A stretch of DNA of 64,000 bases from positions 186,001 to 250,000 of the forward strand of contig NZ_SNUE01000003.1 in assembly GCF_012027425.1 (NCBI RefSeq), read 5' to 3'. This stretch comes from Thermococcus sp. MV5. GTDB lineage: Archaea; Methanobacteriota_B; Thermococci; Thermococcales; Thermococcaceae. Within the stretch, counting starts at the first letter, position 1. Each line of letters opens with the position of its first letter. Below are positions 4,727 through 62,204 of the stretch, in pieces. The position numbers and the translations under genes were made by a program. The notes under the pieces are model-generated. The model made no database searches and was not told where the DNA came from. It worked only from the letters and a program-made list of their open reading frames with translations.

Positions 4727-4760
4727 ATTGAATTTTTTGTGCTCTTTTTTCTGTATTTCT

Positions 4761-4793
4761 GACCTCTTCCCCGCATTAAAAGGCGAGGCTTGA
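4761..4793 (-). repeat. Solo IS200/IS605-type right-end hairpin (copy a)
   Basis: Read on the minus strand it begins AAGCCTCGCC and ends GGGGAAGAGGTCAG. This matches the right-end hairpin of the TnpB element at 51.2-51.9 kb. No transposase is adjacent. With copy b (5502-5535, opposite orientation) it brackets the flavodoxin gene, both outer ends facing away from it. Confidence 0.75.
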
Positions 4794-4931
4794 GAAGAAG
4801 AGGAATGTCAAAGTGTATTTGGATTTATGGCTCCTGCATATACAATAGGACTCATTGGGAAATCTCTTTTTTTATAAAAATACCATGTCACTACTCTGTT
4901 TATATTATTCTCGCAGTTTTTTCGTTGTGTT

Positions 4932-5438: not shown

Positions 5439-5501
5439 ATTCCACACCTATTTATACTTCTTCATGAATTTTCTTATAGTTTGTTCTTACCTTTTTCTTT
5501 T

Positions 5502-5535
5502 GAAAGCCTCGCCTTCACGACGGGGAGGAGGTCGG
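5502..5535 (+). repeat. Solo IS200/IS605-type right-end hairpin (copy b)
   Basis: GAAAGCCTCGCCTTC, then a short loop and CGGGGAGGAGGTCGG. The CCTCGCC arm pairs with GGGGAGG apart from one G-G mismatch. It lies in the promoter-side region of both the flavodoxin gene (minus) and the methyltransferase gene (plus). Confidence 0.75.
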
Positions 5536-51181: not shown

Positions 51182-51236
51182 GTTTTACCGTTTCTTTATG
51201 TTGGGTCCTTTTCTTTGTTTTTGACTTTTCTCCTTT

Positions 51237-51266
51237 TCAAGCCTCGACCTTTAGGATGAGGTGTAG
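51237..51266 (+). repeat. Right-end-like hairpin at left edge of TnpB element (copy e1)
   Basis: TCAAGCCTCGACC, TTTAGG, ATGAGGTGTAG. Same layout as the other copies with a weaker 3' arm. It precedes the TnpB remnant and may be the end of an older insertion or part of the element's left end; the two cannot be separated by eye. Confidence 0.55.
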
Positions 51267-51337
51267 TGTTCGAAGGATTAACCCTTCAGCGGAAGGTAAT
51301 GCTTTTTTAAAGCTTAAAATTCATACCATTTTCTGAG

Positions 51338-51894
51338 ATGAAGCGTTGGGTAACAGTTAAACTTCAACCCTCAAAAGAGCATGAAAAAGCCTTATTCGAG
51401 TTAGCTCAAGCAACGGCGATAATCTGGAACAGACTCAACTACGAGAGGCTTAAACAATTCAAAGAATTTGGAAAAATAGACTTTGGAACAACGGAAAAAG
51501 AAGCTTATTATTCTTTCAAAAACTGGGTTGGCGGTTTAATTACGTCATTAAACGCTTGAAGGAAGTCTCGGAGGAGCATGGTATTAGAGTTTTGGTTGTT
51601 GATGAGTTTTTCACTTCTAAGCTTTGTCCTCTCTGTGGCCAGCGTCATTCTGATGGAAGAATCTTTAGGGGTTTGTTTGAGTGCCACGGGGAGGGCGTTG
51701 TTATGAATTCTGACTTGGTTGGTGCTTTCAACATTTTGAAGAAGGTTGTGAGAATGATAACCCCAAGTCTGAGCGGGCTTTACGCTCAGAGGAGGGGTAA
51801 TGGGGGGAAGGCCCTCCCCGAGGGGCTGAAAACCCTCTTTGAATTGGGCTTTAATGAAGCCCCTCAAACCTCCCCATCACTAGTGAAGGGTTAA
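51338..51894 (+). pseudogene. tnpB: TnpB (RNA-guided nuclease) remnant with central deletion and frameshift
   Basis: The first 66 codons give a TnpB N-terminus (MKRWVTVKLQPSKEHEKALF, then FKNWVGG). After about 51540 another frame carries a TnpB C-terminus: NYVIKRLKEVSEEHGIRVLV, VDEFFTSKLCPLCGQRHSDG, zinc-ribbon Cys, and RuvC-III-like MNSDLVGAFNILKK with its Asp. About 200 residues, including the RuvC-I Asp region, are missing compared with the usual ~400. The second zinc-ribbon CxxC is reduced to CHGEG. It is therefore not a functional nuclease. Confidence 0.8.
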
Positions 51895-51955
51895 CTCGCT
51901 GAAACCCTCACCCTTCAAGACGGGGAGGAGGTCAGTCAACCTGTGGATTAAATAC
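51780..51955 (+). ncRNA. Candidate omega-RNA (reRNA) at the 3' end of the TnpB element
   Basis: In IS200/IS605 elements the omega-RNA overlaps the 3' end of tnpB, includes the right-end hairpin and carries a guide read from flanking DNA. The same arrangement is here: the tnpB tail, arms ACCCTTCA and hairpin CCCTCACCCTTCAAGACGGG, end at GTCAG near 51937. The guide would start just after, in TCAACCTGTGGATTAA. Transcription is not visible; ends are approximate. Confidence 0.35.
51901..51937 (+). repeat. Right-end hairpin of the TnpB element (copy e2, reference copy)
   Basis: GAAACCCTCACCC, TTCAAG, ACGGGGAGGAGGTCAG. It directly follows the TnpB remnant, which identifies this hairpin family as IS200/IS605-type right ends and links the solo copies to transposon activity. 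Confidence 0.8.
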
Positions 51956-56366: not shown

Positions 56367-56409
56367 AGACAAAAACCTAATAAATTTCTTTTTAAATTTT
56401 TACCCACTC

Positions 56410-56447
56410 GAAAGCCTTGCCTTTTAGGGCGGGGGAGGAGGTCAGTC
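56410..56447 (+). repeat. Solo right-end hairpin that carries the ribosome site of the next gene (copy f)
   Basis: GAAAGCCTTGCC, TTTTAGGG, CGGGGGAGGAGGTCAGTC, then ATG 56448. The stem pairs CCTTGCC with GGGCGGGG (with G-U pairs). GGAGGAGGT, 4-6 nt ahead of the ATG, is the only ribosome site for the methyltransferase gene and adjoins the 3' arm. Confidence 0.78.
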
Positions 56448-57380
56448 ATGATAGGAAGACTTTTTGCCCTTGGCTATTCAAAAGAGTTTGCAGAGCGTTA
56501 TTACCAACTTTGGGGTGAGAGAGCTTTAAGGATAGCTGAGGCAATGGAAAAACCTCTTCCAAGATGTTTTCGAGTCAATACTCTTCGTGCTGATGTATCG
56601 AAACTTACCAAGATGTTAAACAAAAAAGGATTTCAATTCAAGCGCGTTCCTTGGGCGAGAGAAGGTTTTTGTTTGACTAGAGAGCCTTTTTCAATTACCT
56701 CAACTCCAGAATATCTAGGAGGATTAGTTTATATCCAAGAGGCCTCCTCAATGTATCCACCAGTAGTCCTTGGACCAAGGCCTGGAGAAATTGTAGCGGA
56801 TATGGCTGCGGCTCCAGGAGGGAAGACATCTTATATGGCCCAACTGATGGAAAACAAAGGAGTAATATATGCTTTTGATGTGGGAGGAGATAGACTAAAG
56901 GAGACCAGACTTAATCTTTCAAGACTTGGAGTGACAAATACTATCCTTGTTCATAAAAGTTCTCTGTACATGGGAGAACTTGACATGGAGTTTGATAAAA
57001 TTCTTTTGGACGCCCCCTGTACTGGTAGTGGCACAATCCATAAAAATCCAGAGAGAAAAGCAAATAGGACAATTAAAGATGTTAAATTCTGTCAGAATTT
57101 ACAAATACAGATGATAAAGGTTGCATTAGAGAATCTAAAGGTTGGGGGAGTATTAGTATATTCTACATGTTCATTGGAACCAGAGGAGAATGAATTTGTA
57201 ATCCAATGGGCGCTCGATAACTTTGATGTTATCCTTTTACCTCTTCGATTTGGCGAGCCAGCCTTAACCTCCCCATTTGACATAGAGCTTAGTTCTGAAC
57301 TCTCTAAGGCAAGACGATTCTATCCGGATGAGCATAATACTAGTGGGTTTTTTGTGGCTAAGATTCAGAAAAAATTCTAA
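56448..57380 (+). CDS. RNA m5C methyltransferase, NSUN/Trm4 type
   Basis: A 310-residue RNA cytosine-C5 methyltransferase of the RsmB/NSUN family. Motif I is VADMAAAPGGKTSYMAQL, and acidic II is YAFDVGG. Motif IV DAPCTGSGTIHKNP and motif VI YSTCSLEPEENEF hold the two catalytic Cys. The N-terminal RRM-like part, RCFRVNTLRADVSKL, is shortened relative to bacterial RsmB/F. The size is like the archaeal tRNA Trm4 enzymes; tRNA specificity is inferred. Its translation start depends on hairpin f. Confidence 0.92.
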   Translation: MIGRLFALGYSKEFAERYYQLWGERALRIAEAMEKPLPRCFRVNTLRADVSKLTKMLNKKGFQFKRVPWAREGFCLTREPFSITSTPEYLGGLVYIQEASSMYPPVVLGPRPGEIVADMAAAPGGKTSYMAQLMENKGVIYAFDVGGDRLKETRLNLSRLGVTNTILVHKSSLYMGELDMEFDKILLDAPCTGSGTIHKNPERKANRTIKDVKFCQNLQIQMIKVALENLKVGGVLVYSTCSLEPEENEFVIQWALDNFDVILLPLRFGEPALTSPFDIELSSELSKARRFYPDEHNTSGFFVAKIQKKF

Positions 57381-60362: not shown

Positions 60363-62088
<1,726 letters not shown>

Positions 62089-62091
<3 letters not shown>

Positions 62092-62122
62092 CCTCCTCCC
62101 GCCTTGAAGGGCAAGACCTCCA
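62089..62122 (-). repeat. Solo right-end hairpin at the nep1 stop (copy g)
   Basis: On the minus strand: GGAGGTCTTGCC, CTTCAA, GGCGGGAGGAGGTCA. The stem TCTTGCC/GGCGGGA is complete with G-U pairs. The outer GTCA end, read on the plus strand, is the TGA stop of nep1. Confidence 0.78.
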
Positions 62123-62204
62123 AAAGAAAAAGTAAATTCTCTTCAAAAATTTTTTAAATGAGTAGAATAAACCACATCAAGAACGTTTGTGGGAGGTAAA
62201 GAAA

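Follow-up and report, generated by a model that had tools for sequence, protein, structure and literature searches.

Does a transposon supply the ribosome-binding site of an RNA methyltransferase gene in Thermococcus sp. MV5, and if so, how was the gene translated before the insertion? The sequence-only reading of a 64,000-nt stretch of this genome (the window) had proposed that a transposon end provides the only Shine-Dalgarno (SD) sequence ahead of the gene, and that the adjoining hairpin could control translation through its fold or through temperature. The gene (56448-57380, + strand) is intact and encodes a 310-aa protein of the NOL1/NOP2/sun family of RNA m5C methyltransferases, a class assigned by passing the TIGR00446 cut-off (293.6 against 210.45 bits), with a match to PDB entry 1ixk (E 1.2e-166). 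The score against the NCBIfam equivalog for tRNA (cytosine(49)-C5) methyltransferase was 238.6 bits, below its cut-off of 550. Six matches to the protein were found in the MV5 genome. Against the two closest relatives (genomes G008 and G009), dN/dS was 0.062 and 0.045, values that span the time both before and after the insertion.

A 42-nt insert occupies positions 56404-56445, directly 3' of the host tetranucleotide TTAC (56400-56403), and terminates in GGAGGAGGTCAG two bases 5' of the ATG at 56448, with TC (56446-56447) in between; all of these features are on the + strand. From its left side, the insert holds the tetranucleotide AAAG (56411-56414) at the foot of a hairpin (56415-56434) whose arms were placed by folding at 56415-56422 and 56427-56434. 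The tail that follows carries the SD sequence GGAGGAGGT (56434-56442, core AGGAGGT at 56436-56442), 5 nt from the ATG, and ends in TCAG (56442-56445), the right cleavage-site sequence. All SD motifs in the last 25 nt before the start codon fall within the GGAGGAGGT run. The SD sequence had been described as adjoining or overlapping the stem, which agrees with this layout, as AGGAGGT lies just 3' of the stem and only G56434 of the longer run is inside it.

The insert was then compared with orthologous loci. A protein search found the methyltransferase in 56 of 61 genomes, and the region before the ATG was examined at 30 loci, of which only that of MV5 contains the hairpin insert. In G008 and G009, whose proteins are 96% identical to that of MV5, the site is exactly empty: TTTTTAC, with the same TTAC, is joined directly to TCATG and the 42 nt are cleanly absent. 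The idea that transposon sequence is the sole supplier of the SD is thus borne out, the insert being absent from an exactly preserved empty site in each of these relatives. A comparative check for orthologues that share the leader without the transposon found the leader at none of the 29 other loci. The element tail was likewise absent from all 20 usable 5' regions in a further contig scan (L220-L236 and L239-L241), several of which overlap the first set and one of which (L232) is only 29 nt long. Judged from these loci, the 42-nt insert is a species-specific, derived state.

The identity of the element was established from five letter-identical 1,891-bp IS200/IS605 copies in genome G002 (L210-L214). 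Each copy contains a Y1 transposase domain, and the one copy whose ORFs were listed has a tnpB-like gene too. All five copies have TTAC on their 5' side and end in TCAG, and the element is likely to be active. Its left end consists of TTAC followed by TTTTTCTTCTGAAAG, the hairpin and ATGCAG, and its right end of GGAAC, nearly the same hairpin and AGGAGGTCAG. The MV5 unit corresponds to the left end of the full element as far as the hairpin, continued by the hairpin and tail of the right end, a structure expected after recombination between the two similar hairpins. The 3' portion of the unit is an IS200/IS605 right end, and the unit matches the covariance model of its family with 53.2 bits. 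The description as a transposon end therefore stands as far as derivation from the element is concerned and needs correction in its form, which is not a plain end but a left-end/right-end fusion with a single hairpin.

The insert belongs to a family of such units, 36 to 47 nt in length. The tail GGAGGAGGTCAG occurs 30 times in the MV5 genome (0 for the reversed control), a transposon homology that greatly exceeds chance; some copies are the right ends of tnpB elements and many are short units after TTAC or TGAC. A covariance model built from 22 units gave at least 70 matches in MV5, at least 54 in G009 and at least 21 in G008 (E up to 0.01, right ends included), lower bounds since 150 of 1,383-1,595 first-look candidates were scored per genome. 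Within the window, the 16-mer of the hairpin core (up to 3 mismatches) has two matches, one exact and one with 2 mismatches, where 0.31 are expected; 3 of 100 shuffles reach two. The window also holds a decayed tnpB element (51226-51935, +), with its left end after TGAC and GGAGGAGGTCAG as its right end, and family matches at 4759-4808 (-), 5487-5535 (+) and 62088-62136 (-), the last at a site that is also filled in G008 and G009. No description of the family was found among the matches listed in a search of the literature on IS605 miniature elements in Thermococcales and Pyrococcus.

Joined-flank tests on 16 units revealed seven exact empty joins after TTAC or TGAC (L033, L041, L044, L047, L051, L052 and L060), that of the methyltransferase unit among them, and insertion, which duplicates no target sequence, is on the 3' side of a fixed tetranucleotide. 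The other outcomes were varied. The L054 site is empty but has a different target in the relatives, the L048 site is filled in G008 as well as G009 and the L045 site seemingly in G008, L038 aligned poorly, and L032, L040 and L053 gave partial matches only. At L034 and L058 the relatives carry extra DNA. Where MV5 has one unit at L034 (G000:C1:161702), about 3.56 kb lie between the flanks in G008 and G009 (L199/L200), with TTAC at both breakpoints in G008 and ORFs that by eye resemble a glycosidase-type gene, a transporter and a beta-glycosidase; the MV5 state is what a recombination event joining two units would produce. At L058 (G000:C5:238143), G008 is longer by about 0.6 kb (L201) with TTAC at one breakpoint, a possible second unit-to-unit deletion.

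The units also follow the target rule of their relatives. According to the available part of the IS608 paper (PMC5934647), each hairpin has a guide on its 5' side, and crosswise pairing joins the first two bases of the guide to those of the target; AAAG of the methyltransferase unit corresponds to that guide in letters and position. We counted guides and targets in 66 of 70 covariance-model rows, having dropped two rows of L031, one of L032 and a weak second match of L052. The dropped L031 and L032 rows cover two places; the count omits one of these, a partial right end, and retains the other through the second row of L032. Of 28 rows with guide AAAG, 18 follow TTAC, none TGAC and 10 neither, and of 16 rows with CAAG the corresponding numbers are 1, 9 and 6, so that guide and target covary among the decided rows (18:0 versus 1:9, Fisher p 1.4e-6 in this model-aligned count). 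The remaining 22 of the 66 rows have other guides, among them GAAC, the right-end type, for which all seven rows end in TCAG, in agreement with the same rule.

Whether such units move by themselves is a separate question. By the guide rule, units without GAAC cannot choose the right cut, which favours the view that they are scars. Both end hairpins, as found in mobilisable derivatives, were looked for in the methyltransferase unit, which has one. The Y1 transposase domain (PF01797), present in 25 of 94 family genomes, has no match in the MV5 draft genome, which is 95.9% complete. An observation that argues against a pure scar view is that four units at unrelated sites (L216-L219; G000:C3:191508, C5:43703, C5:55178 and C5:215637) have a common derived 18-nt hairpin sequence, for which no exact match was found in 12 other genomes of the genus. 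Copying from unit to unit could account for this, as could gene conversion or a full-length parent that has since been lost. We regard as tentative, and on balance doubtful, the proposal that the 36-47-nt units, far from being dead scars, are minimal mobile DNA spreading in its own right, helped in trans by Y1 transposases of other elements, and portable ribosome-binding sites; it draws on their right edge being a built-in SD sequence and on the L216-L219 hairpin, which is as unit-to-unit copying would give. If true, archaeal genes could pass from leaderless to SD-led translation by acquiring a unit. A role of the unit as guide RNA of a TnpB nuclease was considered and set aside, as just one hairpin of the right end, the last, is present in the 42 nt.

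What the insertion would have changed depends on the promoter. The TATA-like 8-mer TAATAAAT lies 20 to 21 nt before the ATG in all ten genus relatives examined (L002-L011) and 62 nt before it in MV5 (56378-56385, +), where we infer that it is used. SD motifs in the last 25 nt were present at 2 of the 29 other orthologue loci, each a lone GAGGT and neither within the genus. In a T. onnurineus study, as far as its text was available to us (PMC5316973), archaeal TATA boxes are placed about 27 nt before the start and were found from -30 to -20, the median leader is 12 nt and leaderless messages make up 12.4% of primary starts. Since the box of the genus relatives stands 20 to 21 nt from the ATG and no SD accompanies it, the ancestral methyltransferase mRNA is predicted, as the most likely case, to have been leaderless. 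In MV5, A56406 is preceded by a pyrimidine and lies some 25 nt from the box centre, the position taken by the A of the ATG in the empty site, and by this promoter spacing the leader is predicted to cover 56406-56447 (+). A second AT-rich box, TTTAAATT (56391-56398), outscores TAATAAAT in an untrained and unvalidated matrix, and by the same matrix the nearer box also scores higher in several orthologue loci. If TTTAAATT were used, the MV5 leader would begin inside the hairpin and the transcript of the relatives inside the gene. A plain count of TAATAAAT replaces the matrix here.

The SD sequence of the insert is strong. Its duplex with the anti-SD was calculated at -11.3 kcal/mol for the filled site versus +1.8 kcal/mol for the empty one, using the general archaeal anti-SD sequence, because an exact 19-nt pattern for the archaeal 16S 3' end had no match in the MV5 draft genome. 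A duplex of -11.3 kcal/mol or lower was also calculated for 6 of 14 further starts that were tested in the window. According to the accessible part of a review (PMC7531240), leadered mRNAs that lacked an SD went untranslated in a Sulfolobus extract. An insert that supplies an SD together with the leader would therefore be of a kind that a leaderless gene could survive.

These observations lead to the following account. Inserted at TTAC, a 42-nt IS200/IS605 derivative has come to separate the promoter of the methyltransferase gene from its start codon. The promoter has stayed in place while the ATG was shifted 42 nt downstream, which would give the mRNA a leader of about 42 nt, and the element tail happens to carry a strong SD at a suitable 5 nt from the ATG, which would make translation by the SD route possible. 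The analysis shows the insertion, its empty sites, the identity of the element, the SD match and the intact gene, while we infer where the transcript starts, that the ancestor was leaderless and that the SD is used. To the whole account, in which the insertion turned a leaderless message into an SD-led one, we assign a probability of about 0.72. Within it, the most likely present state is an SD-bearing leader of about 42 nt created by the insert, and a transcription start at or beyond 56440 is unlikely, as the promoter position argues against it.

The gain looks like a lucky accident rather than the product of a dedicated system. Our own estimate, which takes about 2,000 genes with 7 positions each on one strand and about 58 units (66 rows less 8 right ends), is that chance alone would yield 0.2 sense placements at such a short distance from a start; a single case is therefore no sign of targeting. 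In the family at large, GGAGGAGGTCAG with an ATG 0 to 8 nt after it occurs in 51 of 94 genomes (5 of 94 for the reversed control), and no other SD donor was proved among the 30 such loci examined (L069-L098). The longest ORF of these, 258 aa at L098, appears by eye to belong to a serpin-like gene that the element has interrupted, L092 and L096 seem to lie inside coding sequence, and the remaining loci head short or unproven ORFs. In MV5, a start codon 0 to 15 nt past the tail with an ORF of at least 40 codons, or one open at the locus end, was found for 5 of the 66 rows, and only the methyltransferase unit heads a 310-aa gene.

Control of translation by the fold, the other part of the sequence-only reading, did not find support. 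The hairpin has 8 bp, including three G-U pairs, and a TTTA loop, with -12.1 kcal/mol for a 38-mer at 37 C, and is no more stable than dinucleotide shuffles (z -0.67). None of the leader folds was better than its shuffles (z -1.11, -0.77, -0.67 and +0.71), and at the gathering thresholds of Rfam the sole match in the window was tRNA. When the leader was folded at nine temperatures, the SD had an unpaired fraction of 84-91% over the range 37 to 80 C in the model with the stem alone. The longer models do open with heat: the unpaired fraction of AGGAGGU rises from 0.30 at 37 C to 0.63 at 80 C for the whole leader with 17 nt of the gene, and from 0.01 to 0.55 with 57 nt. This is what a translational switch or RNA thermometer would do, hiding the SD when cool and exposing it at growth temperature, but a G-rich SD paired to ordinary partners would be expected to open in this way, and in the 57-nt model it pairs at long range mainly with gene sequence common to the closest relatives, which have no insert. 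With fold energies that shuffles equal and a stem that leaves the SD free, we consider a thermometer very unlikely.

Other explanations bear on what the insertion did to the message. It may have lowered expression, as a mildly harmful recent event whose damage the SD merely softens. The insertion is species-specific, nothing shows a benefit, and the placement is near the 0.2 expected from random insertion of about 58 units; against this, the gene is intact with low dN/dS and its SD equals those of several neighbouring genes in strength, which makes harm an unlikely explanation, if the least unlikely of the four rivals. Less probable again is tolerated noise, with transcription restarting near the ATG, the message still leaderless and the SD unused. 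The share of leaderless primary starts in T. onnurineus, about 12% in the available text (PMC5316973), would allow this and the gene is intact whatever its leader does, but the 35 nt before the ATG are mostly GC-rich hairpin and SD, and the best AT-rich boxes listed for the MV5 leader end at least 49 nt before the ATG. That the hairpin is an ancestral leader structure merely resembling a transposon end has a negligible probability, given its absence from every other orthologue locus, two of them exact empty sites, and its many copies elsewhere in the MV5 genome.

The unit combines traits of several known systems. A solo LTR is the one-copy remnant of recombination between two like ends, and the MV5 unit is similar, with the difference that it derives from the ends of a DNA transposon and not from a retroelement repeat. 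Compared with full IS200/IS605 elements, it is reduced to one hairpin, without genes and without the right guide GAAC. As described in the accessible part of the IS608 literature (PMC5934647), insertion takes place 3' of TTAC, the TTAC is kept on the left flank and a tetranucleotide guide, AAAG for TTAC, stands at the 5' foot of the hairpin, all as in MV5. REP sequences and their TnpA-REP are also short single hairpins after a guide-like tetranucleotide, with many per genome, and are tied in the available text to a Y1-type transposase (PMC8266576), whereas PF01797 was not found in the MV5 draft. MITEs, archaeal ones included, are short gene-less derivatives of insertion sequences too; those of Sulfolobus in the accessible text are 164 and 320 bp long, and MITEs are described there with terminal inverted and direct repeats (PMC3718332), unlike the single hairpin without target duplication in MV5. 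A parallel in kind is Borrelia, where free-standing IS605 stem-loops without transposase occur, some adjoining host genes (PMC2775950), so this kind of unit is already known. In the part of that paper available to us, the gene-linked loops stand at the 3' ends of genes, whereas in MV5 just 2 nt separate the unit, with its SD, from a start codon. The new part is probably the gift of an SD to a gene that was probably leaderless; no paper on an IS605-type unit doing so was found among the matches listed by a search outside which most subscription journals lie.

The locus provides a natural before/after experiment, in which the same gene with the same promoter box is found in one sister species with a 42-nt leader and an SD, and in two without. 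Leaderless versus SD-led initiation in Thermococcales thereby becomes testable on one gene, and the locus illustrates one way in which a gene can acquire a leader. More generally, a family of very short IS200/IS605 relics marks the genomes of MV5 and its relatives.
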